Origin: Antarctobacter heliothermus
GTDB lineage: Bacteria > Pseudomonadota > Alphaproteobacteria > Rhodobacterales > Rhodobacteraceae
Assembly (NCBI RefSeq): GCF_900188425.1
Contig: NZ_FZON01000001.1
Location: forward strand, 1-64,000
DNA: 64,000 nucleotides
Direction: 5' to 3'
Shown: positions 1-14,544 of the stretch, one piece after another
Numbering within the stretch: the stretch's first letter is position 1
Layout of the letters: each line of letters opens with the position of its first letter
The notes under the pieces: generated by a model
What the model was told of the DNA's origin: nothing
Databases searched by the model: none
What the model saw: only the letters and a program-made list of their open reading frames with translations
Translations under genes and position numbers: made by a program

Positions 1-232
1 GCTTGGGCTTCCGCGCGTTTGTCGCCAGCATCTCGTCGAGTTCGTCCTTCCAAGGACCGATCTTCGGCTGCGGCTGGACGGTCCGCTCGTAGGTGTGCTC
101 GGTCGCACCGGACCGGATCACCTTGCGCACCGTGTTCCGTGAAATCCGCAGTTCCCGGCAGATCTGCTTGATCGGCTTCTTGTCCTGAAAATACGCCCGA
201 CGGATCTTCGCAATCGTCTCCACAACCAACAT
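1..232 (-). CDS. istA: IstA-type transposase, N-terminal part (partial)
   Basis: The first 77 codons of an IS21-family transposase are visible; the rest is beyond base 1. The ATG at 232 begins MLVVETIAKIRRAYF. A helix-turn-helix follows at about residues 22-42 (PIKQICRELRISRNTVRKVI), which is the DNA-binding region expected at the N-terminus of IstA. The DDE catalytic core and the IstB ATPase gene would lie to the left. Family assignment rests on the N-terminal sequence and on the terminal repeats upstream. Confidence 0.8.
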   Translation of the reverse strand, partial: MLVVETIAKIRRAYFQDKKPIKQICRELRISRNTVRKVIRSGATEHTYERTVQPQPKIGPWKDELDEMLATNARKPK

Positions 233-332
233 CCCACACTGTGCTCCCCGATAGCCTCGGGAGCATCATCCACATCAGTGTAAGGGGGTCATTGTTGGAC
301 GCCGATCACCCCGTTACGGGGTCAAAATTGCA
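1..332 (-). mobile_element. IS21-family insertion sequence, left end (partial)
   Basis: This is the end of an IS21-type element that runs off the left edge of the window. It contains the start of an istA-type gene (1-232) and about 100 bp of terminal sequence. The inferred tip lies near 332; read on the minus strand it begins TGCAATTTTGACCCC. A second TGACCCC-type block follows at about 284-292, in keeping with the multiple terminal repeats of IS21 elements. The tip is inferred from these repeats and from the point where the neighbouring HTH gene loses sense. The other end and the target duplication are outside the window. Confidence 0.7.
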
Positions 333-593
333 TGCCTGTTCACAATCGCGGACAGCGGGCCGTTTCTGCGCCTTGAAATAGCCAGCTGTCGAGATTCCAG
401 CCGCGTCACATGCGGCGCTGATTGTCATGCCGCGACGGATGCGCAGTCCGATCGCCTTACGCAACTTCGCGGAGATCCGGGGGGACGGGGCGGGGAGTGC
501 TGCAAGGTGTGTCATACAGCAGAGTTTACTGCAGGAAGTGGCTCGGCTGCATGCACCCATCTTGGCATCGGTTTCTGCGGCCTTGGCCTCCAC
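306..593 (-). pseudogene. Small phage-like HTH protein, truncated by the IS21 element
   Basis: The open frame carries a helix-turn-helix-like stretch (KLRKAIGLRIRRGMTISAAC followed by DAAGISTAGYFKA) like small proteins of Rhodobacteraceae prophages and islands. The frame then runs into the IS terminus near 332, so the last residues (CNFDPVTG) are read from IS sequence and the native C-terminus is lost. The start is uncertain: GTG at 593, or ATG at 515 just before MTHLAALPAPSPRISAK. Neither has a strong ribosome site. I infer that the gene is dead or altered. I cannot name its function beyond probable DNA binding. Confidence 0.5.
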
Positions 594-614
594 GATCCCG
601 GCGGCACAGGAACG

Positions 615-1163
615 CTAGTCCTCAAAATGAAAAAATGAAAAATCCCGTGGGCACAAGTGGACTAGAGGTTTCGCGCGCCCGAATTTTACCCCCGCCCCCT
701 TCGGTTTCCGTGTGTAAGAGATCGAAGGGGGGGTGTTTCCTTTGTCAGGTTTCGGGCGCAGGCCACTCATTCCGGCTGCGGATTGCCATAGCCGCAGAAC
801 AAGCCGCAAACCGGGATCGCACATGGCAGCCTCAAACTCCGGCGATCCTTCGGGCATACTCGGCTTGAAGTACTCCCAAGCGACGTGCGCCAATCCTTGC
901 GCATCGTGGAGGGTTTGCGGTCGGCACGCCAGCATGGTTTCCAGCGCCGCCGCCTTACGCCTTTGCGCCGCCTTGGTTTCGGGCAGACCAAAGTCACCGC
1001 CGCCGGGCAATTCAATCGAGGCCCGCAGATCACGCCGGGCAGCCCGCCACTTGTCGTAGGCTTCCATGTTCGGCTCTGGGCAAATCGTGTCATGGTTCAT
1101 CGCGCTGCCTAGCGGCAGGGTTTGTCTCGGTTCGGATGGGTCGCGGGTGTTTGCCTTCGTCAT
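615..1163 (-). CDS. Hypothetical island protein
   Basis: A 182-aa protein with no family I recognise. The start is well supported: AAAGGAA lies 5 to 6 bases before the ATG at 1163. Residues 30-125 look like ordinary helical protein (YDKWRAARRDLRASIELPGG; LAHVAWEYFKPSMPEGSPEF). The C-terminal 40 residues (from about RKPKGAGVKFG to HFED) read like non-coding sequence, so the original stop may have been lost. It lies between the IS-disrupted HTH gene and the 3' end of tRNA-Arg, so it is probably cargo of the integrated element. Confidence 0.5.
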   Translation of the reverse strand: MTKANTRDPSEPRQTLPLGSAMNHDTICPEPNMEAYDKWRAARRDLRASIELPGGGDFGLPETKAAQRRKAAALETMLACRPQTLHDAQGLAHVAWEYFKPSMPEGSPEFEAAMCDPGLRLVLRLWQSAAGMSGLRPKPDKGNTPPSISYTRKPKGAGVKFGRAKPLVHLCPRDFSFFHFED

Positions 1164-1285
1164 GTCGATTCCTTTCCGATATCGAACTCGGAAGAATGCG
1201 CCAGTTTACAGGTCAGCCATCTTCCCTCCGGCTTCCCCATCGCAAAAGCAGTCAACACTTCATACGCGTAAGTTATTGGAATGAT

Positions 1286-1362
1286 TGGCGCACCCAAGAG
1301 GATTCGAACCTCTGGCCTCTGCCTTCGGAGGGCAGCGCTCTATCCAGCTGAGCTATGGGTGC
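1286..1362 (-). tRNA. tRNA-Arg (CCG)
   Basis: A 77-nt tRNA with an encoded CCA. The acceptor stem is GCACCCA paired with TGGGTGC, with discriminator G. The anticodon arm is CTGCC-CTCCGAA-GGCAG, giving anticodon CCG. The T arm is GAGGTTCGAATCCTC. The accessory genes begin immediately after its 3' end, which makes it the likely attachment site of the island at 1-1285. Confidence 0.97.
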
Positions 1363-1502
1363 GTGCTGGCGGCTGTATAGACCCAAGGGGCCGACCTCTG
1401 CAACGCCTTACTGACAGCCTGAAAATCAGAAGCTGACATTTTTGCGCGGCGCGGGCAACCGTGCAGCCTCTCGACACCCTGCCCCTCTGCGCCCGCGCCT
1501 TG

Positions 1503-2513
1503 TCAGGGCTTGTGCGCCTGCGCCAGCATGGTCATTTCCGGGATCAGCGGCGCGACGGTTATTCCGGCGAATCCGGCCCCCGCCAGTGCCCCGTCCAGCC
1601 ACCCCGCATCCAGCGAGCGGGCCTCGGGCGTGAATGCGGTATGTTGCAACTGCCAGAGCGCGGCCAGGGACGGGCCGGTCCGGTCCTCGTGGACCACAAA
1701 ATCATGGATCAACACGATCCCGCCCGGATTGAGCACCTCGAACGCCTGCCGGATCAGCCGCGCATGGGTGTCGCCCGGAACGCCCGACAGCAGATAGGAC
1801 ATCATCACCACATCCTGCCCCTGCGGCCAGGGTGTTTCCAGCGCGTTGCCCTCCAGATAGGTGATCCGGTCGGTCAGGCCCGCCTTGTCCACATATGTGC
1901 GCCCCAGCGCAGCGACATTGGGAAACTCCAGTATCGTCGAGGTCAGTTCCGGGTTCGCCTTGCACAGGGTGATGTCAAAGGCCGCCGTGCCGCCGCCCAG
2001 ATCCAGCATCTTGTGCTTGCCGGACAGATCCAGCGCCCTGACCAGTTGCCGCGCCGGGCCCAGTGACCCGGAATGCTGGCTTTCGGAATACAGCCGCGCC
2101 TGCTCGGGGTCGGAAAACCAGTCGGCATAGGACGCGGTTGCATCCTCGGCCATGGTACCGGCCAGCGCATCGCCCAGTTGATCCATCAGCGGATACATCT
2201 GCCGCCCCACCTGCAGGCGCAGATAGTCGGAAAAATCGTACTTGGCCCCCTGCACCAGAAACGCCTGCGCGGCAGGGGCGTTGGAAAACCGGTCCTCATC
2301 AACCGCGACCAACCCCATACCCGCCAGCGCCGTCAGCAAGGTCGTCACCCGGTCTTCATGTATCTTTGACACCTGCGCCAACTCGGTCGCCGTCATCGCC
2401 CCCTCTGCCAGATGGGTGAAGATCCCGAGTTCGAGCGCCGCGAACAGCGCCTTCGACCCCATGAATCCAAATGCGATTTGCGAAATTTCGTCAGCGTCGG
2501 TCAAAAGCGACAT
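1503..2513 (-). CDS. dsyB: SAM-dependent methyltransferase, probable DsyB (MTHB S-methyltransferase)
   Basis: A 336-aa class I methyltransferase of the dimerising O-methyltransferase type. An N-terminal winged-helix/dimerisation domain covers about residues 10-95, and the SAM-binding loop is MLDLGGGTAAFD at 169-180. The usual catalytic His of small-molecule O-methyltransferases (the HDW motif) is replaced by LLSGVPGD at 241-248, which argues against O-methylation by that mechanism. It is the last gene of the iscR-suf operon, 115 bp after sufS. From memory, dsyB, the enzyme that methylates 4-methylthio-2-hydroxybutyrate in DMSP synthesis, lies beside Isc/Suf genes in many marine alphaproteobacteria. 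Size, fold, missing His and location all fit, but I could not align it. The alternative is another acetylserotonin-type methyltransferase. A ribosome site GGAGAG precedes the ATG. Confidence 0.65.
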   Translation of the reverse strand: MSLLTDADEISQIAFGFMGSKALFAALELGIFTHLAEGAMTATELAQVSKIHEDRVTTLLTALAGMGLVAVDEDRFSNAPAAQAFLVQGAKYDFSDYLRLQVGRQMYPLMDQLGDALAGTMAEDATASYADWFSDPEQARLYSESQHSGSLGPARQLVRALDLSGKHKMLDLGGGTAAFDITLCKANPELTSTILEFPNVAALGRTYVDKAGLTDRITYLEGNALETPWPQGQDVVMMSYLLSGVPGDTHARLIRQAFEVLNPGGIVLIHDFVVHEDRTGPSLAALWQLQHTAFTPEARSLDAGWLDGALAGAGFAGITVAPLIPEMTMLAQAHKP

Positions 2514-2576
2514 GCGGCTCTCCGTGGCAGTTGCGGTGCCGCCAACCTGCCAAGACGCCGCCCGGAATTGAACCCC

Positions 2577-2598
2577 CGTTCAGAAAAAGACCTGAACG
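2577..2598 (-). other. Hairpin between sufS and dsyB
   Basis: The arms CGTTCAG (2577-2583) and CTGAACG (2592-2598) form a 7-bp stem with an 8-nt loop that is T-rich on the minus strand. It lies in the 115-bp gap between the sufS stop and the dsyB start. No long T-run follows, so it may be a processing or attenuation structure rather than a full terminator. Confidence 0.4.
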
Positions 2599-2628
2599 AG
2601 GGCGCACCATGTCTAGAAAACCGGCAGT

Positions 2629-3849
2629 CTAGCCGAAAAGGTCGTGTGCCAGCTCCAGCGCATCCACCAGCGCGTCCACCTCTGCCGTGGTGTTATAGAG
2701 GCCAAAGCTGGCCCGGCAGGTTGCGGTGACGCCCAGGAAATCCATCAGCGGCCCGGCACAGTGATGCCCCGCCCGCACCGCGACCCCCTTTTTGTCGAGG
2801 ATGGTCGAGATGTCATGCGCATGGCCTGCCCCCTGCATCGTAAAGGAGAAAATCGCCGCCTTGTCAGGCGTCGCCCCCTGCACGCTGAGCCAGTTCAACC
2901 CGTCCAGACGGGTCCGCGCGTAGTCGCGCAGCGCAGTCTCATGGGCGGCGATGTTGTCCATCCCCAGCCCCATCATGTACTCCAGCGCGACGCCAAGACC
3001 GATCTGCTGGACAATGCCGGGCGTTCCTGCCTCAAACTTCATCGGCGGATCGTTCCAGGTGATCTCATCCTTGTGGACCTCACGGATCATGTCGCCGCCG
3101 CCCATGAAGGGGCGCATTTCATCCATCCGGGCGCGACGCATCCAGATCGCGCCAGACGCCGACGGGCCATACAGTTTATGCCCGGTGATGGCGTAGAAAT
3201 CACAGCCGATGTCCTCGACATTGACCGGCATGTGGACCGTCGCCTGTGAGCCGTCCACCAGCACCGGCACGCCCTTGGCCCGCGCACCGGCGCAGATGGT
3301 CTTGACGTCCACCACCGTACCCAGAACGTTGGACAGATGGGTGACGGCCACCAGCTTGGTCTTGGGGCCAATGGCGTCGATGATTTTTTGCGGGTCAAGA
3401 TAGCCGGTCGAATCCACGTCGACCCATTTGATCACCACCCCCTGCCGTTCGCGCAGGAAATGCCAGGGCACGATATTGGCGTGATGTTCCATCACCGACA
3501 GCACGATCTCATCGCCCGGCTGCAGGTTGGGCATCGCCCAGCCATAGGCCACCATGTTGATGCCCATCGTGGTGCCAGTGGTATAGACGATCTCTTCGGG
3601 GTCTTTGGCGCCCAGAAAGCGCGCGATGATCTCTCGGACGCCTTCATATTTCTCGGTCGCAAGGTTCGACAGATAGTGCAGGCCCCGGTGGACGTTGGCG
3701 TATTCCTCGGCATAGCCGCGTGTCACCGCGTCAATCACCACCTGAGGTTTTTGCGCCGATGCGCCATTGTCCAGATAAACCAGCGGCTTGCCATTCACCT
3801 CACGCGAGAGGATCGGAAAATCGGCGCGAACCGTGTCGACGTCATACAT
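2629..3849 (-). CDS. sufS: Cysteine desulfurase SufS
   Basis: A 406-aa PLP-dependent group II cysteine desulfurase that takes sulfur from cysteine for Fe-S cluster assembly in the cytosol. The PLP lysine is K225 in ITGHKLYGPS, and the active-site cysteine is C364 in AGHHCAGPL, on the short loop typical of SufS. The N-terminal FPILSREVNGKPLVYLDNGA is the usual start of the family. The start codon overlaps the end of the upstream YIP1-like gene by 8 bp, so the two are co-transcribed and probably translationally coupled. SufE or SufU, the usual sulfur acceptor, is not in this cluster. Confidence 0.96.
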   Translation of the reverse strand: MYDVDTVRADFPILSREVNGKPLVYLDNGASAQKPQVVIDAVTRGYAEEYANVHRGLHYLSNLATEKYEGVREIIARFLGAKDPEEIVYTTGTTMGINMVAYGWAMPNLQPGDEIVLSVMEHHANIVPWHFLRERQGVVIKWVDVDSTGYLDPQKIIDAIGPKTKLVAVTHLSNVLGTVVDVKTICAGARAKGVPVLVDGSQATVHMPVNVEDIGCDFYAITGHKLYGPSASGAIWMRRARMDEMRPFMGGGDMIREVHKDEITWNDPPMKFEAGTPGIVQQIGLGVALEYMMGLGMDNIAAHETALRDYARTRLDGLNWLSVQGATPDKAAIFSFTMQGAGHAHDISTILDKKGVAVRAGHHCAGPLMDFLGVTATCRASFGLYNTTAEVDALVDALELAHDLFG

Positions 3850-4426
3850 AGTCTGTCATCCCTTCGGGTGTGACCCCGGCGAGGGTCAAAAGCAGCGAGA
3901 TGGCAAAAGCCATTGCAAACATGCCCAATACCAACACGGCCAAGGCGCGCAAGGGGCCGCCCAGCTCATGCGCCTCATCCAGAAAATTCACCGCGATCCA
4001 GACGCCAAGCGCCGTGGCCGCCATTGTCACCAGTCCGGCCAACATCAGCGAGATCGGGATAACCAGCAGCAATGCGCCCTGAACCAGAATGCGCAGCCCC
4101 TGCATCCAAATCATCAGCAGGGCGATTTCCTCAACCCGCGCCTTGCCTCCGAATAGCCGCCCGGTCCAGGTCAAGGCAAGGATACTGCACGCCAAGGCGC
4201 CGCCTTGCAGAACAAGCAGGATCGCCGGGTTGGACAACAGGGTCGGCGCACTGGTCGGGTCCAACAGCAAGGAACCCGAAAAGATCATCGCATTCAGCAC
4301 GACAACCAGCGCAAACGCCGTCCACAGGGCCTCGCGCCCCGGACGGATCGACAACAGCAAAGCGGCGACCTCACGCGGGTTCGTCACACTTTGCAGCGCC
4401 AGTTTCAGGTAGCCGTCCAGGGTCAC
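3842..4426 (-). CDS. YIP1-family-like membrane protein
   Basis: A 194-aa protein with about five hydrophobic segments, resembling the YIP1 domain family. I chose GTG at 4426 (VTLDGYLKLALQSVTNPREV): it overlaps the previous stop as GTGA, and its N-terminus matches the family opening, whereas the longer frame begins with Arg/Gly-rich junk. The motif NPREVAALLL is typical of bacterial YIP1 proteins. It is a paralogue-like neighbour of the next membrane gene, and both sit between sufD and sufS. Any role in Fe-S assembly is unproven; membrane location is a prediction. Confidence 0.75.
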   Translation of the reverse strand: MTLDGYLKLALQSVTNPREVAALLLSIRPGREALWTAFALVVVLNAMIFSGSLLLDPTSAPTLLSNPAILLVLQGGALACSILALTWTGRLFGGKARVEEIALLMIWMQGLRILVQGALLLVIPISLMLAGLVTMAATALGVWIAVNFLDEAHELGGPLRALAVLVLGMFAMAFAISLLLTLAGVTPEGMTDYV

Positions 4427-4932
4427 ACCGCGCCCTCTTCGCCACCCGGTCCCGCCAGTCTGCGCGCCTCGCGCAGGCCCGTGGTCCAGAACCAGAGGAA
4501 CACCCCCAGCCAAGCCGCGCCGACCAGCGTCAAGGCGCCCCCGGCCCCGATGAACCCACCGACCAGCCCATAGAGCAATGCCAGAGGCGCGGCCGCCAGC
4601 AGCGCCCAGAACAGCGACAGACGGGTTTCATATCCCCCAATCGGGCGCATCACAGCCGTCGCCACCAATTGGCTGAACCCGGCCACGACATAAAAGATCA
4701 ACGGCAGAAAGATCACCGTCGCCAGCAGCGCCCCGCCAAGCGCCGGTTCCAGTTCGGTGCCTTGCAGATGCGCCTCCCGCGCCAGCCGGGGCCATTGCGC
4801 GACAAACATCACGCCGCAGGCCCCCATCAGATAGGCCAGCGCGCGTGGTTCGCTGACCCCGCGCGCCAGAATCGCGCGCAGGGTCTTGCCCGGCCTGCGA
4901 TAGGTGGCGGCAATATCACGGGTGACAGGCAC
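4423..4932 (-). CDS. YIP1-family-like membrane protein
   Basis: A 169-aa integral membrane protein with about four hydrophobic segments (for example LAYLMGACGVMFVAQW and LLATVIFLPLIFYVVAGFSQ). It starts with GTG at 4932, 3 bp after the sufD stop, and ends in a GTGA overlap with the next YIP1-like gene. The pair may work together as a heteromeric membrane complex. No catalytic motif is visible. Position in the operon suggests a link to Suf function or just co-expression. Confidence 0.75.
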   Translation of the reverse strand: MPVTRDIAATYRRPGKTLRAILARGVSEPRALAYLMGACGVMFVAQWPRLAREAHLQGTELEPALGGALLATVIFLPLIFYVVAGFSQLVATAVMRPIGGYETRLSLFWALLAAAPLALLYGLVGGFIGAGGALTLVGAAWLGVFLWFWTTGLREARRLAGPGGEEGAV

Positions 4933-4935
4933 CGC

Positions 4936-6216
4936 TCAGCTGCGCCGACGGGCCAGCCAGGCCGCCACGCGTTCGACCAGTTCTTCTTGCAGGCTCTCGT
5001 CTTCGATCTCCTGCACCGCTTCGGCGATAAAGGCGATGGTCAGCAGATCCTCGGCAGTGCCGCGCGGCACGCCACGGGCCCGCAGGTAGAACAGCCCCTC
5101 CTCGTCAATCGCGCCAGAGGTCGAGCCATGCGAACAGGCTACGTCATCGGCGTAGATTTCCAATTCGGGCTTGGCAAGGAACTGACTGTCGCCGTCCAGC
5201 AACAGCGCCTGGCTGATCTGATAGCCATCGGTCTTCTGCGCGCCCGGTTTGACCAGGATCTTGCCCTGAAACACACCCGTCGCGCCATTGCGCAGCACCT
5301 TCTTGAACACCTGACGGCTTTCACAATTCACCGCGTCATGGGTGACAAAGATGGTGTCGTCATGGTGGAACGCGCCGTCCCCCATGCAGGCCCCGGCAAC
5401 ATGCGCCACCGCGTCGTCGCCGGTGATGTCGATCATCACCTCGTTGCGGGTCAGCATGCCGTTCACGGTCAACGTAAAGCTCTTGAACGTGCTTTCCTGC
5501 CCCAGACGGGCAAAGATATGCGTAGCGGCGCGGCGTTCATGGTCACGGCCCTGCGCGCGGATATGGTGCAGCGTGGCGCTGTCAGCCACATCGACCTCGA
5601 TACACTGGTTGAACCGTGCGGCGGCGGGTCCGTTTTCAAGGATCGTCGCCTCGGCTCCGGCGTCCAGCTTGATCACATGATGCAGGATCGCGTCCGAGGT
5701 TGAATCCTCATGGCGATAAATCAGGTTGATCGGCTTTGAGACCTTGCCGGTGACGTGGATCAGCACGCCGTCGCTGGCAAAGGCAGTGTTCAACGCCGCC
5801 AGCGGACGGGCCACCGGTGTTTGACCCTGCGCCTCAAGAACGCCGTACAAGTCCTTGGCCCAATGGATATCCTTGGCCTCGGCCAGACGGTCGACAGACA
5901 CGCCCTCAAGGCTCAGATCGTCGGAGTCGGCGGCGGAAAACACGCCGTCCACAAAGACGATCTTCAACCGGTCGCGCGCGGCAAACAGCGGCGTCTCATC
6001 GTCCTGATCCAGAACGGCAGCGGCAGGCGCATCCGCCGTGACCAGCGTATCAGGCCGGGTGTATTTCCAGTATTCATCGCGCGCGGTGGGCAGACCCATG
6101 GCGCGCAGACGCGCCAGCGCGTCCTGCCGCGCCGGATCGCTCCAGCCGCCTTCCGGCAGGGCCAGCGCGGACAGCCGCGCCTCGGTTGCGTCCAGTTTTG
6201 CTTGTGGCAGTGCCAT
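4936..6216 (-). CDS. sufD: Fe-S cluster assembly protein SufD
   Basis: A 426-aa SufBD-family protein that pairs with SufB and the ATPase SufC in the SufBC2D scaffold. The conserved C-terminal beta-helix core is clear (FQGKILVKPGAQKTDGYQ; DVACSHGSTSGAIDEEGLFY), including the His of the CSHGSTSG motif. The length is normal. Its ATG overlaps the sufC stop as TAATG, which couples its translation to sufC. Confidence 0.95.
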   Translation of the reverse strand: MALPQAKLDATEARLSALALPEGGWSDPARQDALARLRAMGLPTARDEYWKYTRPDTLVTADAPAAAVLDQDDETPLFAARDRLKIVFVDGVFSAADSDDLSLEGVSVDRLAEAKDIHWAKDLYGVLEAQGQTPVARPLAALNTAFASDGVLIHVTGKVSKPINLIYRHEDSTSDAILHHVIKLDAGAEATILENGPAAARFNQCIEVDVADSATLHHIRAQGRDHERRAATHIFARLGQESTFKSFTLTVNGMLTRNEVMIDITGDDAVAHVAGACMGDGAFHHDDTIFVTHDAVNCESRQVFKKVLRNGATGVFQGKILVKPGAQKTDGYQISQALLLDGDSQFLAKPELEIYADDVACSHGSTSGAIDEEGLFYLRARGVPRGTAEDLLTIAFIAEAVQEIEDESLQEELVERVAAWLARRRS

Positions 6217-6971
6217 TACGCGACCTCCGCAAGAATGTCGGCATAGCCGTTCTTTTCGACCTCAAGCGCCAGTTCGGGCCCGCCGGTCTTGATGATGCGG
6301 CCATCGGCCATGATGTGCACAACGTCCGGTTTGATGTGGTCCAGCAGGCGCTGGTAGTGCGTGATGACTAGAAACCCGCGCCCGGAGTCGCGCAGCGCGT
6401 TCACTCCGTCCGCCACCAGCTTCATCGCGTCCACGTCAAGACCCGAGTCGGTCTCATCCAGGATGCACATCCGGGGTTCCAGCATCGCCATCTGCAGGAT
6501 CTCGTTGCGCTTTTTCTCACCGCCCGAAAAGCCGACATTGACCGGGCGCTTGAGCATCTCGGCGTCGATCTTCAGCGACTTGGCCTTTTCGCGGATCACC
6601 TTGAGGAACTCGGCAGAGGACATTTCTTCCTCACCGCGCGCCTTGCGCTGTGCGTTCACAGCCGTGCGCAGGAAGGTCATGTTGCCGACGCCGGGGATCT
6701 CGACCGGGTACTGGAACGCCAGGAACAGACCGGCGGCGGCGCGTTCTTCGACGTCCATGTCCAGCAGGTCTTTGCCTTCCAGCGCGGCAGATCCCTCAGT
6801 GACCTCATAGCCATCCTTGCCGGACAGGACATAGGACAGGGTCGATTTGCCAGAGCCGTTCGGCCCCATGATCGCATGCACCTTGCCCGCCTCGACGGTC
6901 AGGTCGACGCCCTTGAGGATCTGCTTGTCCTCTTCTTCAAGTTTGACGTGCAGGTTCTTGATTTCCAGCAT
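6216..6971 (-). CDS. sufC: Fe-S cluster assembly ATPase SufC
   Basis: A 251-aa ABC-type ATPase of the SufBCD scaffold. It shows Walker A GPNGSGKST (about residues 36-44), signature FSGGEKKRNE, and Walker B CILDETDSGLD with the switch His in FLVITHYQRL. AGAAGGA precedes the ATG. The neighbours are ybjQ upstream and sufD downstream with a 1-nt overlap. Confidence 0.97.
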   Translation of the reverse strand: MLEIKNLHVKLEEEDKQILKGVDLTVEAGKVHAIMGPNGSGKSTLSYVLSGKDGYEVTEGSAALEGKDLLDMDVEERAAAGLFLAFQYPVEIPGVGNMTFLRTAVNAQRKARGEEEMSSAEFLKVIREKAKSLKIDAEMLKRPVNVGFSGGEKKRNEILQMAMLEPRMCILDETDSGLDVDAMKLVADGVNALRDSGRGFLVITHYQRLLDHIKPDVVHIMADGRIIKTGGPELALEVEKNGYADILAEVA

Positions 6972-7054
6972 TTTTTGTCCTTCTCAAGTCAGGTCCGTCG
7001 CGCACCTTTGCCAATGGGCGGGCGCGATCGTGTTCCATGGGTTGGGGTGGTGGA

Positions 7055-7366
7055 TCAGTCGATCACCACCGCTGTGCCGCTGGCAGAAACCATCAGCATG
7101 TTGTTGATCACTTCATAATCTAGGTCGACGCCCACCACGGCCGTGCCACCAAGGGCGGCGGCCCGGTCTTCCAACTCGCGAAGTGCGGTTTCGCGGGCTT
7201 CTTGCAGGCTGGCCTCATAGGCACCCGACCGGCCACCGATGATGTCGGTGATCCCGGCAAAGATATCGCGGAACACGTTTGCCCCAAGAATGGCCTCACC
7301 CACCACAATGCCCTTGTAGGCGGTGATGCGGCGGCCTTCTATGGCTGGGGTCGTGGTGACAATCAT
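7055..7366 (-). CDS. YbjQ/UPF0145 family protein
   Basis: A 103-aa YbjQ-type protein, a small fold that forms pentamers and is often annotated as a heavy-metal-binding domain. The hallmark pattern runs from [20 protein letters not shown] at the N-terminus through [20 protein letters not shown] to DLDYEVI. GGAG lies 7 nt before the ATG. It is inserted between sufB and sufC in the operon. Its biochemical role is unknown; a part in metal or oxidative-stress handling is only suggested by context. Confidence 0.85.
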
Positions 7367-7439
7367 CTTTCAACTCCAAGATCTTGCGACGCGCTTCTCA
7401 GGCAAGAGATACCGGTCAAAAGGCCCATCCGCGCTGTCG

Positions 7440-7661
7440 CTACAGCGGCCGCCAATGGCCCCAAAGATTGCAGTGCCGCGTGGCAAACAGGCTGGGTTCA
7501 CAGTCACGGACCTGCATGGCCATTTCCACGTCAATGCCGTGAATCAAGGTCGGGTCGTACAGCGGACCGGCGGCCAGCGCCGGTTCCTGCAAGCCAACGC
7601 CGCCGACCAGCATCATGATGCCCGCCAGCGCAAGCAGCCCCATACCCAGCCCGCGCCGCAT
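7440..7661 (-). CDS. Small exported or membrane-anchored protein in the suf operon
   Basis: A 73-aa protein whose ATG overlaps the sufB stop (TGATG). The first 31 residues form a basic start and a hydrophobic segment (MGLLALAGIMMLVGGVGL), consistent with a signal peptide or an anchor. The rest has two cysteines (DCEPSLFATRHCNLWGHW), possibly a disulfide pair in the periplasm. I know of no named family. Tight coupling to sufB supports it being real. Confidence 0.6.
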   Translation of the reverse strand: MRRGLGMGLLALAGIMMLVGGVGLQEPALAAGPLYDPTLIHGIDVEMAMQVRDCEPSLFATRHCNLWGHWRPL

Positions 7662-9193
7662 CAGCCCACGGACCCTTCAAGCGAGATTGCCACCAGTTGC
7701 TGCGCCTCCATGGCGAATTCCATCGGCAGCGCCTGCAACACGTCGCGGCAGAACCCGTTGACCACAAGGGCCACGGCCTCTTCCTCGTCCATGCCGCGCT
7801 GGCGGCAATAGAACAACTGGTCGTCGTCCACCTTGGAGGTGGTCGCCTCATGCTCGACCCGCGAAGAGTTGTTCTTGACCTCGATGTACGGCACCGTGTG
7901 CGCCCCGCATTTGTCGCCGATCAGCAAAGAGTCGCACTGGGTATAGTTGCGCGAATTTTTCGCCTTGGGGTGCATCGACACCAGACCGCGATAGGTGTTC
8001 TGCGCCACGCCCGCGCTGATGCCCTTGGACACGATGCGTGACCGGGTATCCTTGCCCAGATGGATCATCTTGGTGCCGGTATCGGCCTGCTGGTGGTTGT
8101 TGGTGATGGCGATGGAATAGAACTCACCCTGGCTTTCGTTGCCGCGCAGGATGCAGGACGGGTATTTCCACGTCACCGCAGAGCCGGTTTCCACCTGTGT
8201 CCACATCACCTTGGCCCGGTCGCCCCGGCAATCGGCGCGCTTGGTGACAAAGTTGTAGATGCCGCCCTTGCCCTCTTCGTTGCCGGGATACCAGTTCTGC
8301 ACCGTGGAGTATTTCACCTCGGCGTCTTCCTCGACGATGATTTCCACCACAGCTGCGTGCAGCTGGGCCACGTCGCGCTGCGGCGCGGTACACCCTTCGA
8401 GGTAGGACACATAGCTGCCCTTGTCGGCAATGATCAGCGTGCGCTCGAACTGGCCGGTGTTTTCCGCGTTGATGCGGAAATAGGTCGACAGCTCCATCGG
8501 GCAGCGCACACCCGGCGGCACGTAAACAAACGACCCGTCAGAAAAGACGGCCGAGTTCAGCGTGGCGTAAAAGTTGTCCGACACCGGCACGACCGAGCCA
8601 AGGTATTTCTTGACCAGTTCGGGATGCTCGCGGATCGCCTCTGAGATCGAGCAAAAGATCACGCCCGCCTTTTTCAGTTCCGCCTGAAAGGTGGTGCCAA
8701 CGGACACGGAATCGAACACCGCATCCACCGCCACGCGGCGCTCGCCTTCCTTGGCCTCGGCCGGGGTAGCCTCCGCGCCCTCGACGCCCGCAAGGATCAT
8801 CTGCTCTTTCAGCGGAATGCCCAGTTTCGCGTAGGTTTCCAACAGCTTGGGGTCGACCTCATCCAGCGACTTGGGCTTTTCGGTCATCGACTTGGGCCGG
8901 GCGTAGTAATACTGGTTCTGAAAGTCGATTTCCGGGTATTCAACCATCGCCCAGTCCGGCTCTTTCTTCTGCAACCAGCGCTCATAGGCTTGCAGTCGCC
9001 AGTCAGTCATCCACTGGGGTTCTTCGTTCTTTTCCGAGATCAGACGCACGATGTCCGGCGTCAGCCCCTTGGGGGCGTATTCCATCTCGATGTCGGTTTC
9101 CCAGCCGTGTTTGTAGGTGCTGACCGATTTGACGGCATCGACCGTCTCCTGGTCGACACCTTCCTTGACTGTCACTTCATCGAAAGCCGCCAT
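7661..9193 (-). CDS. sufB: Fe-S cluster assembly protein SufB
   Basis: A 510-aa SufB, the main scaffold subunit of SufBC2D where the cluster forms. Family motifs include [32 protein letters not shown] and the C-terminal core [20 protein letters not shown]. The length is usual for alphaproteobacteria. GAGAGG precedes the ATG. It follows the IscS-like desulfurase by 15 bp in the same operon. Confidence 0.97.
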
Positions 9194-9208
9194 CGGGTTT
9201 CCTCTCTT

Positions 9209-10312
9209 TCATGCGGCCCGCGCGCGGTGCCGCTGGTATTTGCTGATCCAGGCGTCGCAAAAGCGCGCCACGTCGTCTTCTGTTGTCTCCAGACCCAGGC
9301 TCACCCGGATGGCGCTGCCCGAAATCTGGTCGTCGTATCCCATCGCCTCCAGCACGCGGCTCCGGCGGACCTTGCCGCTGGAACAGGCGGACCCGGCGCT
9401 GACCGCAAAGCCTGCAAGGTCCATCTGCATGACCTGCGTCTCACCCTTCCAGCCGGGGGTCGCAAGGCACGCGGTGTTTGGCAAACGGACCGAGTCTTTC
9501 CCGACAGAAATAGTCACCTCAGAGGCAGCCTCAAGAGATTCTTCTAGAATGTTTCTAAGTTTTTCGACTCCGCGCCATCTTTCTGCCGCGACGTCACCCT
9601 GCGCCGCCTCAGCCGCCGCGCCGAATCCGGCGATGCCGATGACGTTTTCCGTGCCGCTGCGCCGCCCCATCTCCTGCCCGCCGCCCCTGAGGATGGCCTG
9701 CGGGTCGTCACGGGTGAAATTGATGAAGGCGCCGACACCCTTGGGGCCGCCGATCTTGTGCGCCGACAGGATCATGTAGGCCGGTTTGCGCCCCTCGGGG
9801 TAAAGCACCGGCACCTTGCCCGCCATCTGGGTGATGTCGCAGACAACGGCCCTGTCCCCATCACTGGCCACGACACAGCGGTCCGGCATCATGATCCCGG
9901 TCTCGCTGTTCGCCGCAGACATGGCCACCAGAGCCGCCTGCCCGTCCAGCAGTTCCAGCCCGCCAACCGTACCGTCCGCGTGGTGCAGCGCGGGCAAATC
10001 GAGCTCGGACCAGACATTCAGGCAGTCGTGTTCCGTCGGCAAGGCCGCAAAGACCCCGCCATGTCGGTCCTTTTGCGCCACCGCCAGGGCCGCCGCCTCT
10101 GTCGCCGATCCGGTAAAGATCACCTGCGACGTCAGGCAGCCCACCAGTGCCGCGACCTGCGCGCGCGCCGTCTCGACCACACCCTTGGCGGCGCGCCCCT
10201 CGGCATGGACTGATGAGGGGTTGCCCGTCACATCCATCGCCGCGATCATTGCCGCGCGCGCCTCGGCGCGCAGCGGCGTGGTCGCATTGTGATCAAGATA
10301 GACGCGCGCCAT
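9209..10312 (-). CDS. IscS/NifS-like cysteine desulfurase
   Basis: A 367-aa group I-like cysteine desulfurase. Key residues are the PLP lysine K186 in LSAHKIGGPKGVGAF and the catalytic C310 in SAGSACSSGKV. It is shorter than E. coli IscS (404 aa). It follows iscR by 3 bp and precedes sufB, so the operon has two desulfurases of different groups. It probably supplies sulfur to the Suf scaffold together with SufS, perhaps under different conditions. A stretch of rare AT-rich codons at residues 251-259 coincides with an operator-like sequence. Confidence 0.9.
   Translation of the reverse strand: MARVYLDHNATTPLRAEARAAMIAAMDVTGNPSSVHAEGRAAKGVVETARAQVAALVGCLTSQVIFTGSATEAAALAVAQKDRHGGVFAALPTEHDCLNVWSELDLPALHHADGTVGGLELLDGQAALVAMSAANSETGIMMPDRCVVASDGDRAVVCDITQMAGKVPVLYPEGRKPAYMILSAHKIGGPKGVGAFINFTRDDPQAILRGGGQEMGRRSGTENVIGIAGFGAAAEAAQGDVAAERWRGVEKLRNILEESLEAASEVTISVGKDSVRLPNTACLATPGWKGETQVMQMDLAGFAVSAGSACSSGKVRRSRVLEAMGYDDQISGSAIRVSLGLETTEDDVARFCDAWISKYQRHRARAA
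9543..9559. promoter_or_regulatory. Iron-Rhodo-box-like sequence inside the desulfurase gene
   Basis: On the minus strand this 17-mer reads CTTAGAAACATTCTAGA, matching 14 of 17 bases of the perfect palindrome upstream of iscR. It lies within codons (AAA CTT AGA AAC ATT CTA) that are rare in this GC-rich genome. It could be a second IscR site acting on downstream suf transcription, or chance. Confidence 0.35.
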
Positions 10313-10315
10313 GTC

Positions 10316-10783
10316 CTACTTGTCCTCTTCGTCGACCACCGCAAAGATGGACGGAACCGCCGGACAGGGCGCCAGCGAGTTTTCGACCACGTCCGACAAC
10401 CGTGTCTGATGCAAAAAAACGTAGACATGCGCCGACAGGCTTTGCCACAGGCGGTTGGTCATGGATTGCGCGCGGCTGCCCGACAGCCCGCCAGAGGCGC
10501 CCGCACCCACATGCATCGCGTCCACCGTCTCATCTACGGCGGCCAACACCTCGACCACCCGGATCTCTGCCGGGGGTCGCGCCAGACGATACCCGCCACC
10601 CGGCCCGCGCACGGATTCCACCAGTCCTGCCCGCCGCAGCTTGACGAACAATTGCTCCAGATAGGGCAACGACACGTCCTGCCGCCGGGAAATATCACCC
10701 AAGGTGACAAGCCCGTCAGAGGGCTGCATCGCGATATCTGTCAGCGCGACCATGGCGTAGCGACCTTTGGTACTCAACTTCAC
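10316..10783 (-). CDS. iscR: Rrf2-family regulator IscR (Rhodobacterales type)
   Basis: A 155-aa Rrf2 protein with an N-terminal winged helix (KLSTKGRYAMVALTDIA; ISRRQDVSLPYLEQLFVKLR; VRGPGGGYRLA). I chose GTG at 10783: KLSTKGRYA is the family N-terminus and GAGGGG lies at a workable distance before it. The three clustered cysteines that hold the cluster in E. coli IscR are absent (AGASGGLSGSRAQS there), and the only cysteine is C140 near the C-terminus. From memory, Rhodobacter sphaeroides IscR is also single-Cys and represses suf genes through the Iron-Rhodo-box. It heads the operon and is probably autoregulated. Confidence 0.93.
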   Translation of the reverse strand: MKLSTKGRYAMVALTDIAMQPSDGLVTLGDISRRQDVSLPYLEQLFVKLRRAGLVESVRGPGGGYRLARPPAEIRVVEVLAAVDETVDAMHVGAGASGGLSGSRAQSMTNRLWQSLSAHVYVFLHQTRLSDVVENSLAPCPAVPSIFAVVDEEDK

Positions 10784-10807
10784 GGCAGTTTCGCCCCTCA
10801 TCGCGGC

Positions 10808-10835
10808 GGCAATTGACCTTGTCCGTTCAATTGCC
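10808..10835. promoter_or_regulatory. Inverted repeat in the iscR leader
   Basis: A perfect 9-bp inverted repeat, GGCAATTGA (10808-10816) and TCAATTGCC (10827-10835), with a 10-bp spacer. It lies 25 bp upstream of the iscR GTG. Its sequence differs from the Iron-Rhodo-box, so it may bind a second regulator (Fur/Irr or other) or form a leader hairpin. Confidence 0.45.
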
Positions 10836-10870
10836 TATCTGCTTCCCAGCCCGGAACACGCCGGAGCCAA

Positions 10871-10887
10871 TTTAGAAACCTTCTAAA
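10871..10887. promoter_or_regulatory. Iron-Rhodo-box (IscR operator)
   Basis: TTTAGAA-ACC-TTCTAAA is a perfect 7-bp palindrome with a 3-bp centre, about 88 bp upstream of iscR and also upstream of the divergent hydrolase gene. It matches, as I recall, the motif assigned to IscR in Rhodobacterales. Predicted role: iron- or cluster-dependent repression of the iscR-suf operon. Confidence 0.75.
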
Positions 10888-10970
10888 GTAGCCGCGTGTT
10901 TTGGTCAAGAATGCCAAGGCGTCCAGTTGGGCCGCCCTTCAAATAGATGTGTAAGGAGCTGCGCCGCCCC

Positions 10971-11624
10971 ATGCCCGAGGTGATATTTCCCGGACCCGAA
11001 GGCCGTCTCGAAGGCCGCTATCATCCGCAAAAAGACCGCGATGCCCCCATCGCGATCGTTCTGCATCCGCACCCGCAGTTCGGCGGGACGATGAACAACA
11101 AGGTGGTCTACAACCTCCACTATGCGTTCTACAACATGGGCTTTACCGTGCTGCGGTTCAATTTCCGTGGCGTCGGTCGCAGCCAGGGCGAATACGATCA
11201 GGGCGTCGGCGAATTGTCCGATGCGGCCTCGGCGCTCGATTACCTGCAGTCGATGAACCAGAACTCCAAGCATTGCTGGGTGGCCGGGTTCTCGTTCGGG
11301 GCATGGATCGGGATGCAACTGCTGATGCGGCGGCCCGAAATCACCGGGTTTGTCTCTGTGTCTCCGCCGGCCAACATGTATGACTTCAGCTTCCTTGCGC
11401 CCTGCCCGTCGTCCGGTCTGGTCATCAACGGCACCGCCGACCGCGTGGCGCCACCTGCCGACACCCGGTCACTGGTTTCCAAGTTGCATGAGCAGAAGGG
11501 GATCAAGATCACCCATCAGGAGGTCGAGGGGTCCGGGCACTTCTTTGAAGAGCCGCACATGGACACGCTGATGGAATCGGTATCCACCTATGTAAAGCGG
11601 CGCCTGACCGAAAACACCCGCTGA
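10971..11624 (+). CDS. Alpha/beta hydrolase
   Basis: A 217-aa serine hydrolase of the dienelactone hydrolase-like COG2945 type. The nucleophile elbow is GFSFGAW (Ser near residue 110), after the oxyanion segment LHPHPQFGGTMNNKVV and the strand LRFNFRGVGRSQG. The late Asp is in NGTADRVAPP and the His in EVEGSGHFFEE. I chose the ATG at 10971 (MPEVIFPGPEGRLEG) because AAGGAG precedes it. The next small gene starts 10 bp after, so the two form an operon. Substrate unknown. Confidence 0.88.
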   Translation: MPEVIFPGPEGRLEGRYHPQKDRDAPIAIVLHPHPQFGGTMNNKVVYNLHYAFYNMGFTVLRFNFRGVGRSQGEYDQGVGELSDAASALDYLQSMNQNSKHCWVAGFSFGAWIGMQLLMRRPEITGFVSVSPPANMYDFSFLAPCPSSGLVINGTADRVAPPADTRSLVSKLHEQKGIKITHQEVEGSGHFFEEPHMDTLMESVSTYVKRRLTENTR

Positions 11625-11633
11625 GGAGCGCCC

Positions 11634-11915
11634 ATGTCCGTCGTCGATGAACTGGCAGACAAGCTCGCCCGCGACACGATCAAGGCGATGGACGTGCTTG
11701 GGGACGAAAACCTGCCCGATCAGGTGGCGGCGGTGTTGGGGGCGTCCTCGCCCTCGTCCGAGGAAATATTTCGCGCCGCCGTTCGCATCCGTCTGGCCGA
11801 ACGGCGCGCCCGCAACTTTCTGAACGACCACGTCCAAAAGGCGCTGGACGCCAAAAAGCGCGGCGAGTCCGTGCCACAGGCGCTGGCTCCGGGGTCGGAC
11901 AACGAAAACCTCTGA
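11634..11915 (+). CDS. Conserved small protein of unknown function
   Basis: A 93-aa, mostly helical, charged protein (MSVVDELADKLARDTIKAMD; AAVRIRLAERRARNFLNDHV). No signal peptide or metal motif is present. It follows the hydrolase gene closely, with GAGGAG just upstream of its ATG. I recognise it only as a type seen in Rhodobacteraceae. Confidence 0.75.
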   Translation: MSVVDELADKLARDTIKAMDVLGDENLPDQVAAVLGASSPSSEEIFRAAVRIRLAERRARNFLNDHVQKALDAKKRGESVPQALAPGSDNENL

Positions 11916-12003
11916 TCTGACAGACGCGGCAGCGACAAGCCGTAAGGCCGCCGTCAAGGCAATAAGATACGCGTCAATCGTGATGCGCTGCCCGAGAGAT
12001 GTT

Positions 12004-12432
12004 TCAGCTTGCCTCGACCGGCCAATAGCCAGCCAAATCCTTTAGTCCCGCCCGGATCAATTCGGCCAAAACGTCCAGATCCACCTTCGACAATGCGCCA
12101 AGATACAGGCAGGATTTGCCCAGTTTATGCGGCCCAAGCCGGGACAGGATCGTGCTGTAATCCGCGTATCCGGGCATGATGTAGACCACCATTTTCGCCT
12201 TTCGCGGCGCGAACCCGGTGGCCAGACTCTGCCCCGAATGGCCGCTGGCATAGGTGTAGGCATAGCGCCCATAGCCCACCATGGACGTGCCCCAAATGAC
12301 CGGCTGCCACCCCGTGACCTTGCGAAACACCGCGTCCAGAATCAGCGCATCCTCGCGCCGCCGCGCCGGTTCAACCTGGCTCAGAAACTCCGCAACCGGA
12401 GCATCCGAGGGCACTGTCATCCGATCCGCCAT
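12004..12432 (-). CDS. DUF1801 family protein
   Basis: A 142-aa YdhG-like DUF1801 protein. Characteristic segments are FRKVTGWQPVIWGTSMVGYG, FAPRKAKMVVYIMPGY and LGPHKLGKSCLYLGALSKVD. The family is cytosolic and has no settled function, though it is related to frataxin-like folds. It precedes nothing obvious; the lpdA gene lies upstream on the same strand after a 45-bp gap. Confidence 0.85.
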   Translation of the reverse strand: MADRMTVPSDAPVAEFLSQVEPARRREDALILDAVFRKVTGWQPVIWGTSMVGYGRYAYTYASGHSGQSLATGFAPRKAKMVVYIMPGYADYSTILSRLGPHKLGKSCLYLGALSKVDLDVLAELIRAGLKDLAGYWPVEAS

Positions 12433-12477
12433 TCTGTCGATCTCCCAAACAACGGTCCCCGCCGTGCCGCACCCCGG

Positions 12478-13872
12478 TCAGAAATGGATGGCGCGCCCCC
12501 AGGCATCCAGCACGGATTCGTGCATCATCTCGCTCAGTGTCGGGTGCGGGAACACGGTCTGCATCAGGTCCGCCTCTGTCGTTTCCAACTGGCGGCCCAC
12601 AACATAGCCCTGGATCAGTTCCGTCACCTCGGCCCCGACCATATGCGCGCCCAACAGCGCCCCGCTGGCCGCGTCAAAGACGGTTTTGACCATGCCTTCG
12701 GGTTCTCCCAGCGCGATGGCCTTGCCGTTGCCGATGAACGGGAACCGCCCCACCTTGATGTCAAAGCCCTGCGCCCGTGCCTGCGCCTCAGTCAGACCGA
12801 CAGAAGCGATCTGCGGCTGGCAATAGGTGCACCCGGCGATGCTGTCCGGGTCCACTGCGTGCGCGTCCTGCCCGGCGATCAGTTCGGCCACCATGACCCC
12901 CTCATGGCTGGCCTTGTGCGCCAGCCAGGGCGCGCCCGCGATGTCGCCGATGGCATAAATGCCGTCGACCCCGGTGCGGCACATCGGGTCGGTCACGACA
13001 TGGGACCGCTCCACCCGGACGCCCATGTCCTCCAGCCCTAGACCTTCTACATTTCCAACAATACCCACAGCCGAAATCACTGTATCCACGGTGATCTTTG
13101 ACTTATCCCCATTTTCATCCACATGCGCGACAACCGCATCCTTGCCGCGATCCAACTGGGTGACCATGGCCCGCTCAAGGATCGTCATGCCCTGTTTCAC
13201 AAACTGCTTTTTCGCAAATGCGGCGATCTCTTCGTCCTCGACCGGCAGGATGCGATCCATGACCTCGATCACCGTGACCTCGGCCCCCAGGGTGCGGTAG
13301 AAACTGGCAAACTCGATGCCGATGGCCCCGGACCCGATCACCAGCAGTTTCGACGGCATCCGCGACGGCACAAGCGCGTGTTTGTAGGTCCAGACCCGGT
13401 CGCCATCCGCCTCCAGCCCGGGCAGTTCGCGCGCCCGCGCGCCGGTGGCCAGCACCACATTGGCGGCCTCCAACACCTGTTCACCCTTGTCCGTGGTAAC
13501 ATGCACCCGCCCCGGCCCGTCCAGCCGCGCGGTGCCCATGAGCGTTGTCACCTTGTTCTTTTTCAGCAGGTGCCCGACGCCCGAAGACAGCTGTTTCGCC
13601 ACCCCGCGAGAGCGTTGGACCACCGCGTCCAGATCATAGCCCAGGCCCTCGGCCGACAGGCCAAATTCCTTGGCGCGCTGCATCAGGTGGAAAACCTCGG
13701 CCGACCGCAACATCGCCTTGGTCGGAATACAGCCCCAGTTGAGACAGATGCCGCCCATATGCTCACGTTCGACCACCGCCACGCGCAAGCCCAGTTGCGC
13801 GCCCCGGATGGCCGCGACATAGCCGCCGGGGCCCGCCCCGATCACCACCATGTCAAAGCGTTGCTCGCTCAT
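12478..13872 (-). CDS. lpdA: Dihydrolipoyl dehydrogenase
   Basis: A 464-aa FAD-dependent E3 that reoxidises dihydrolipoamide with NAD+. The FAD motif is VVIGAGPGGYVAA, the redox disulfide is C43/C48 in GGICLNWGCIPTK, the NAD motif is VIGSGAIGIEFASFY, and the C-terminal catalytic pair is in VFPHPTLSEMMHE. I chose the ATG at 13872 because GGGAGGAA precedes it. No E1 or E2 genes are nearby, so the partner complex is encoded elsewhere. Confidence 0.95.
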   Translation of the reverse strand: MSEQRFDMVVIGAGPGGYVAAIRGAQLGLRVAVVEREHMGGICLNWGCIPTKAMLRSAEVFHLMQRAKEFGLSAEGLGYDLDAVVQRSRGVAKQLSSGVGHLLKKNKVTTLMGTARLDGPGRVHVTTDKGEQVLEAANVVLATGARARELPGLEADGDRVWTYKHALVPSRMPSKLLVIGSGAIGIEFASFYRTLGAEVTVIEVMDRILPVEDEEIAAFAKKQFVKQGMTILERAMVTQLDRGKDAVVAHVDENGDKSKITVDTVISAVGIVGNVEGLGLEDMGVRVERSHVVTDPMCRTGVDGIYAIGDIAGAPWLAHKASHEGVMVAELIAGQDAHAVDPDSIAGCTYCQPQIASVGLTEAQARAQGFDIKVGRFPFIGNGKAIALGEPEGMVKTVFDAASGALLGAHMVGAEVTELIQGYVVGRQLETTEADLMQTVFPHPTLSEMMHESVLDAWGRAIHF

Positions 13873-13962
13873 GCCGTTCCTCCCTGCCCACATCGCAGCA
13901 AAGGCTAGCTTAGCGTGGCACGCGGGGCAATCACCCCGCGCGCGCCAGATCAGGCGTCAAAT

Positions 13963-14544
13963 TCAGGCGGCGACGTCAGCCTGCAGGTCGCGCAGGATCT
14001 CTGCATATCCGCCATTGTCCAGAAACCCTTGTTCCGGCTGCGTGGTACGGCGCGACAGGGCCGCGTTGCGATAGGGGAAACGGCCAAAACTGCGGATCAC
14101 TTCGCGGTGGACACGCGCGTGCAACAGATTGCTGTCCGACTCTGGCATCCGTTCCTTGAACAAACGCACGCAGCGGTCCTGATCACACAGGTTTTCCGCG
14201 TGCATCAGCGGCATGTAAAAGAACTGCCGCGCCGGGGTGTCGATCTTGAGATCCCAGCCGCGATGGATTGCCTGTTTCGCCGCCGCGCGCGCCACCTCGT
14301 CCGAGGCAAAGGCGCGGCGATCGTCGCGGAACATGTTGCGCGGAAACTGGTCGGCCAGAATGATATAGGCCAGCGCACCTGACGGATAGGTCAGCCACAG
14401 GCCAAAACGCCCGTCCATCAGCCCCTGCAAAGCATCGCCAAACCGCGTGCGGATCGTCTCATCCAGCGTGTCATCCTTGGCGTACCAGCCCTGCGGACCC
14501 ACCTCATCCAGCCAAAAGGCCAGTATATCGTCGGGCGTGATCAT
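13963..14544 (-). CDS. DUF924 family protein
   Basis: A 193-aa all-helical protein of the DUF924 family. The N-terminus MITPDDILAFWLDEVGPQGWY, the segment LILADQFPRNMFRDDRRAFA in the form YIILADQFPRNMFR, and FFYMPLMHAE are hallmark motifs. AAAGGAG precedes the ATG at 14544. The function is unknown. Confidence 0.9.
   Translation of the reverse strand: MITPDDILAFWLDEVGPQGWYAKDDTLDETIRTRFGDALQGLMDGRFGLWLTYPSGALAYIILADQFPRNMFRDDRRAFASDEVARAAAKQAIHRGWDLKIDTPARQFFYMPLMHAENLCDQDRCVRLFKERMPESDSNLLHARVHREVIRSFGRFPYRNAALSRRTTQPEQGFLDNGGYAEILRDLQADVAA

Follow-up and report, generated by a model that had tools for sequence, protein, structure and literature searches.

A DsyB-type methyltransferase gene in a slot of variable cargo bordered by sufS and tRNA-Arg(CCG), whose content seems to be exchanged between lineages

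In Antarctobacter heliothermus, dsyB sits in a slot bordered by sufS and tRNA-Arg(CCG), which in relatives is often empty and sometimes holds other genes. We consider it quite probable that dsyB is lineage-exchanged cargo of this variable slot, with suf being mainly its address, and that in the DNA studied here an upstream repeat is missing and promoter use may be mixed. The dsyB gene was reportedly first described in the discovery paper of Curson et al. 2017. According to the available text of PMC10989797, no other known S-methyltransferase genes of DMSP synthesis are as abundant in the sea as the DsyB/DSYB genes.

The window, i.e., the whole stretch of 64,000 nucleotides that was analysed, starts at base 1 of its contig, and its relevant features are collected in Table 1. 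The 336-aa open reading frame reported at 1503-2513 by the first-pass annotation is present, and its strand is corrected here to minus (2513..1503), the plus-strand reading of the interval containing two stops. The dimerising methyltransferase domains ascribed to this protein were also found (PF08100, 64.6 bits; PF00891, Methyltransf_2, 63.6 bits), while every NCBIfam model stayed below its cut-off and the protein was the sole match to PF00891 in the whole genome at E <= 0.001. The GC content of the gene (0.637, GC3 0.795) is similar to that of the suf genes. The nearest downstream gene is tRNA-Arg(ccg), and an Rfam scan of window positions 1-14000 returned this tRNA alone. Past the tRNA, the contig start (1-1163) contains two open reading frames with no Pfam match, as well as a frame that by eye resembles an IS21 transposase, with weak helix-turn-helix matches below the cut-off.

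Table 1. Features of the dsyB slot and the isc-suf run in the window
Feature	Position	Strand	Evidence
tRNA-Arg(ccg), other border of slot	1286..1362	-	ARAGORN, Rfam
dsyB (almost certainly), MTHB S-methyltransferase of DMSP synthesis	1503..2513	-	phmmer full-length to 7wdq/7wdw; MTHB residues kept
sufS-dsyB gap	2514..2628	-	RNA fold and pattern scans
Predicted stem containing dsyB ribosome-binding site	2561-2514	-	RNA fold
Block GGTTCAATTCC..TCTTGGCAGGTTG, common to window and Mameliella	2543..2574	-	alignments, by eye
Predicted hairpin, 13-pair stem	about 2603-2572	-	RNA fold
sufS cysteine desulfurase	2629..3849	-	TIGR01979 530.9 bits, cut-off 475.1
Yip1-domain protein, start uncertain	3842..4513	-	PF04893 36.4 bits
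Hypothetical protein, kept in relatives' runs	4423..4932	-	no Pfam match; tblastn
sufD	4936..6216	-	TIGR01981 224.2 bits, cut-off 222
sufC	6216..6971	-	TIGR01978 360.9 bits, cut-off 212.8
Small ybjQ-like protein (name by eye)	7055..7366	-	ORF; matches in many relatives
sufB	7661..9193	-	NF008773 897.9 bits, cut-off 717
IscS/NifS-like cysteine desulfurase	9209..10312	-	PF00266; best TIGR03402 217.3 bits, below equivalog cut-offs
Irr-type box inside iscS, 2 mismatches	9543..9559	.	pattern scan
IscR-like Rrf2 regulator	10316..10801	-	PF02082 122.6 bits; TIGR02010 141.9, below cut-off 207.55
Irr-type box TTTAGAA-N3-TTCTAAA upstream of iscR, no mismatch	10871..10887	.	pattern scan

Judged from its sequence, the gene is almost certainly dsyB, as the first-pass annotation had proposed, given a full-length match to the crystallised DsyB of Nisaea denitrificans and the conservation of the MTHB residues. 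In phmmer, the best solved-structure matches were 7wdq and 7wdw, whose entries bear the names MTHB methyltransferase and DSYB; they span residues 1-336 at 480 bits (E 3e-143), and the next solved relative after the DsyB structures was RedM (8tji; 101 bits, E 7e-28), which, like other dimerising methyltransferases, belongs to the same fold family by sequence but scores far lower. All six MTHB-binding residues given in the available text of PMC10989797 (Tyr97, Gln101, Tyr129, Tyr142, Gln146, and His291) are kept in the window protein, in 81/81 aligned DsyB rows, and in 4/4 far relatives. Among the SAM-contact residues (Ser150, Gly173, Asp196, Asp223, Ala224, and Ser239), four of six are identical; Asp196 is replaced by Glu and Asp223 by Asn, each a frequent variant within the family (Glu in 31 and Asn in 61 of 81 rows). 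That the protein is a common type of O-methyltransferase acting on small molecules and has nothing to do with DMSP, a reading to which its generic Pfam domains and the NCBIfam scores below cut-off would lend themselves, can practically be ruled out by the DsyB match, 480 bits against 101 for the next solved relative, and the fully kept MTHB residues.

HDW is the usual catalytic motif of such O-methyltransferases, and the lack of its His, pointed out before, was borne out: the corresponding stretch reads MSYLLSGVPGD in the window and MSYLFSGVAGD in N. denitrificans DsyB. A mechanism by proximity, without a catalytic base, has been proposed for the DsyB family (available text of PMC10989797), and the missing His is in keeping with it. 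Reasoning from the kept residues, window DsyB would use this mechanism to methylate the sulfur of MTHB (4-methylthio-2-hydroxybutyrate) with S-adenosylmethionine, en route from methionine to DMSP. Window DsyB is 65% identical to the N. denitrificans protein (7wdq, 7wdw; PMC10989797, in the part available), with which it shares the full length, the six MTHB residues, and the missing HDW His, whereas the latter has Asp196/Asp223 in place of Glu/Asn and its gene (L046) has no sufS within 10 kb. Identity to Sediminimonas qiaohouensis DsyB is 71%, and the window protein groups with Mameliella (100/99) in an 85-row tree that includes N. denitrificans DsyB and is made of DsyB rows only, with no outgroup. 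In a survey of 295 genomes of the family, including the window's own, a DsyB match at E <= 1e-60 was present in 20, four of which form a far clade (L098-L101; 52-54% identity, six MTHB residues kept) that is possibly a second DsyB type. The DMSP lyase family PF16867 gave a single match in the window's own genome, below the cut-off.

The claim that dsyB is often next to Isc/Suf genes was examined in one scan that returned 134 dsyB relatives, of which the best 80, leaning to window-like genes, were analysed, and it agrees with what was found: 50 of these best 80 of 134 loci have sufS next to dsyB. The arrangement is sufS upstream on the same strand at <500 nt in 44 loci and sufS at 0.9-1.8 kb in five; in one further locus (L073), dsyB is convergent with sufS, being inverted between the two borders at 117 nt from each. 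Four of the 80 (L026, L050, L054, and L072) have dsyB beside tRNA-Arg(ccg), at a distance of 74-129 nt, with no sufS within 10 kb; dsyB is elsewhere in 24, including L080, where 4.3 kb upstream were covered, and the sequence is too short to place the gene in two (L059 and L060). When sufS is upstream on the same strand (50 loci, window included), tRNA-Arg(ccg) follows within 3 kb downstream in 48, at no more than 400 nt in 45 of them, the two exceptions being L028 (3.1 kb covered) and L034. Since the tRNA accompanies dsyB in 48/50 sufS loci and in four loci lacking sufS, tRNA-Arg(CCG) is a steadier neighbour than sufS.

The same slot was followed from the sufS side in a set of 70 sufS loci, five with dsyB beside sufS and 65 with none, two of the latter (L105 and L124) coming from genomes that have dsyB elsewhere. 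These 65 comprise 25 from the best-scoring 30 (about 1.5 kb downstream, one 0.2 kb) and 40 that were hand-picked, with no random draw (2.1-3.6 kb); tRNA-Arg(ccg) lies <500 nt from sufS in 36 and 0.5-2.7 kb away in 12, another 16 show none within the 1.5-3.6 kb searched, and one sequence is too short. Of these 12 wider gaps, six (L159, L160, L175, L176, L186, and L191, all without dsyB) hold cargo that Pfam matches identify, among them PhoX alkaline phosphatase, multihaem cytochrome c, a spermidine-synthase domain, animal-type haem peroxidase, a B12-binding domain, and RTX repeats. Neighbour mining in 30 loci outside the slot or unplaced, using crude open reading frames, found no family common to three independent loci.

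Many slot dsyB genes also have an inverted repeat of their own. When the 140 nt directly preceding dsyB are scanned, CGAC-N7..9-GTCG turns up at 31 of 51 slot loci, compared with 0/4 tRNA-only loci and 3/24 loci elsewhere, and in the 200 nt after sufS in 3/65 loci without dsyB; a stricter form, CGACA-N5..8-TGTCG, is present in 13/51 slot loci versus 0/65 stretches after sufS without dsyB. Among 100 upstream sequences, 92 of them distinct, that make up an overlapping set, the repeat was found in 34/53 slot loci, against a mean of 0.5 and a maximum of 3 in 200 shuffles, and in 1/53 when the control stretch from -600 to -460 was scanned. It adjoins dsyB when sufS is 0.9-1.7 kb off (L007, L008, and L057) and when suf is not near (L021, L043, and L062), and is missing in L030 and L063, two of the five displaced loci. 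The 20 slot loci whose last 140 nt lack it include the window and three Mameliella (L003-L005).

The repeat halves measure 15-17 nt end to end, with variable spacing, and the form CGACAt-N-aTGTCG was observed before a -10-like TAGGCT or TAGGGT (e.g., L009, L016, L055, and L066). With the -10-like hexamer picked by rule inside a set window, the distance from the repeat centre to the hexamer is 34.5-37 nt in 12 loci or 46-48.5 nt in 19, one of the latter (L049) being mis-called and by eye fitting the shorter group, and a 32nd scored locus (L074), with a 13-nt match, being taken as chance. The two groups are approximately one helical turn apart and largely follow clades, so that they represent few events. 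By eye, the repeat differs from what precedes iscR, namely TTGACGAATT and Irr-type boxes. We regard the repeat as a putative protein-binding site before a private dsyB promoter. Its half-sites (TGTCG/CGACA) exceed shuffles in the final 140 nt ahead of dsyB (45/53 slot and 18/27 unlinked loci), but they were not relied on because they are frequent in the control stretch from -600 to -460 too (37/53 and 10/27, respectively). A regulon search with GCGACATN{2,6}TGTCGC in 16 dsyB-bearing genomes gave 63 matches versus 7 for the reversed pattern, with 0-7 matches per genome and palindromic ones counted on both strands. Twelve of 25 loci from this search were inspected: 10 lie under an open reading frame of at least 110 aa, and no common target emerged among the 12 beyond one conserved coding site (L144 and L150). 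Thus, the signal is above the control, yet a common target is missing, and no regulon is claimed. Neither the slot nor the repeat was met in the dsyB literature as far as its available text extends (including PMC10989797, PMC7494906, PMC8004995, and PMC11306096), and earlier notice is possible.

In the window, dsyB follows sufS on the same strand after 115 nt and, as the first-pass annotation had it, closes the Fe-S run, in the order iscR-iscS-sufB-ybjQ-sufC-sufD-hyp-Yip1-sufS-dsyB, all on the minus strand. Three of its nine gaps are wide (those flanking the ybjQ-like gene, 294 and 83 nt, and the one before dsyB), and the remaining six are at most 15 nt or overlaps. Scanning of the 64 kb for Irr-type boxes with up to 2 mismatches yielded the two matches in Table 1 against a shuffle mean of 0.02, one of them at the isc-suf operon promoter; a first pattern with N2 matched the iscR site alone, with 3 mismatches. 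The consensus used is one that we take to be of Irr type, and it is in part seen upstream of iscR in relatives. The IscR-like protein has, by eye, a single Cys, presumably the trait of Rhodobacter-type IscR. The layout resembles that of the Rhodobacter sphaeroides isc-suf operon in the available text of PMC6956336, with an iscR-first run and Irr-type boxes before iscR and inside iscS; in the window run, dsyB comes after sufS. As far as that text goes, RNA-seq suggested co-transcription in R. sphaeroides and IscR binds P1-P3, whereas for Irr, binding could be confirmed at P3 (inside iscS) alone and not at P2 (the iscR promoter).

The sufS-dsyB gap of the window has a predicted fold of -53 kcal/mol (z -2.94), matched in stability by 1 of 200 shuffles, and translation control by this folding is possible on the basis of four sequences (window and Mameliella). 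Other slot dsyB genes have their -35/-10-like region where the GGTTCAATTCC..TCTTGGCAGGTTG block aligns; their -10-like hexamer is TAGGCT or similar, versus CAGGTT in the window and Mameliella. The window and Mameliella gaps have in common the TCTTGGCAGGTTG block as well as an end reading CGGAGA-CCGC. A sigma-70 scan of the window gap found no promoter-like site and a pattern scan found no terminator-like site. The possibility of a sigma-54 site there was weighed by eye and dropped.

Among the competing explanations, the one that survives best is that of the first-pass annotation, in which dsyB ends the iscR-suf transcript and DMSP synthesis comes under Fe-S/iron control through IscR/Irr; we hold it to be rather unlikely. 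It draws on the same-strand position of dsyB behind a gap with no terminator-like site, the recurrence of this arrangement with sufS <500 nt upstream in 44 of the best 80 loci, the R. sphaeroides-like Irr-type boxes before iscR and inside iscS (PMC6956336, available part), and the changes of both repeat and -10-like hexamer in the window clade. As a general rule, wiring to IscR did not hold up: the tRNA is the steadier neighbour, the slot may be empty or hold other cargo, the DsyB and Suf trees conflict (see below), and 31/51 slot carriers have their own upstream repeat. It is also opposed by the five loci with dsyB 0.9-1.8 kb from sufS, the inverted L073, and the four sufS-less loci by the tRNA. 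Moreover, salinity and nitrogen starvation induce N. denitrificans dsyB, which is not near suf (available text of PMC10989797), and the confirmation of R. sphaeroides Irr binding at P3 only, not P2 (PMC6956336, in the part available), speaks against it as well. Terminator-like sites, counted in 45 loci, numbered 8 versus a shuffle mean of 4.3 and a maximum of 9; because they are not clearly above shuffles, read-through may occur at any of the loci. The own repeat and promoter-like block in 31/51 slot carriers lead us to see the suf neighbourhood mainly as an address, and iron wiring does not look like the reason for dsyB's place beside suf. In the window and Mameliella, with the repeat missing and the -10-like hexamer changed, dsyB may depend on iron-type isc-suf read-through, on its own changed promoter, or on both. 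Given the shared strand and the gap with no terminator-like site, co-transcription with sufS is possible in the window, so that IscR/iron wiring could hold in the window clade as a local state.

Somewhat less probable still is that the repeat is no protein site but an RNA hairpin or a weak terminator of the upstream transcript. In some loci (L022 and L031), the stems are by eye long and end in A-rich and T-rich stretches, and the loop length of the repeat varies, both of which would suit a hairpin. However, the repeat stays by dsyB when sufS is distant or not near, its distances to the hexamer fall into two groups approximately one helical turn apart, and terminator-like sites show no clear excess. 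The idea of the repeat as a suf terminator is weakened accordingly, and the protein-binding site remains the reading that we prefer.

The history of the slot was approached by comparing trees. In a SufB+C+D+S tree (46 rows), the window and Mameliella join L049 and then Salipiger, whereas in the 85-row DsyB tree they join Marinibacterium and Pseudooceanicola (13 rows, 100/97). In AU tests of two trees each, run on quick trees with a simple model, with groups named from the other data set and L073 as a long branch, the DsyB data rejected {window, Mameliella, L049} (p-AU 0.0018) and this group plus Salipiger (p-AU 5e-5), and the Suf data rejected the DsyB grouping (p-AU 1e-6). This conflict suggests that slot content, dsyB included, seems to have been exchanged between lineages. 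Gene transfer agents belong to the biology of this order. The exchange would most simply proceed by recombination in the conserved flanks, for which such agents may perhaps be the vehicle. An ancestral suf-dsyB neighbourhood, inherited vertically with many losses, appears improbable as the DsyB and Suf trees conflict and the AU tests stand against it as the whole story. It gains from the clustering of slot loci on the 85-row DsyB tree, where the slot label changes 7 times (at least 5 on starred branches; gain and loss being indistinguishable) against a shuffled mean of 23.2, and from L117, which has no dsyB beside sufS and keeps, by eye, a Salipiger-like dsyB upstream stretch after sufS, likely a deletion scar.

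A bolder scheme, which we put forward as a speculation with rather poor prospects, is that dsyB would be a one-gene cassette with its own operator (CGACAt/aTGTCG) that is swapped at the slot, that in the window clade the operator would have been lost and the iron-controlled isc-suf transcript would have taken over, and that the regulator acting at the operator would carry the salinity/nitrogen response. Apart from this scheme, the slot itself offers a reason for the frequent adjacency of dsyB and iron-sulfur genes without assuming iron control. The repeat provides a concrete bait for finding a dsyB regulator.
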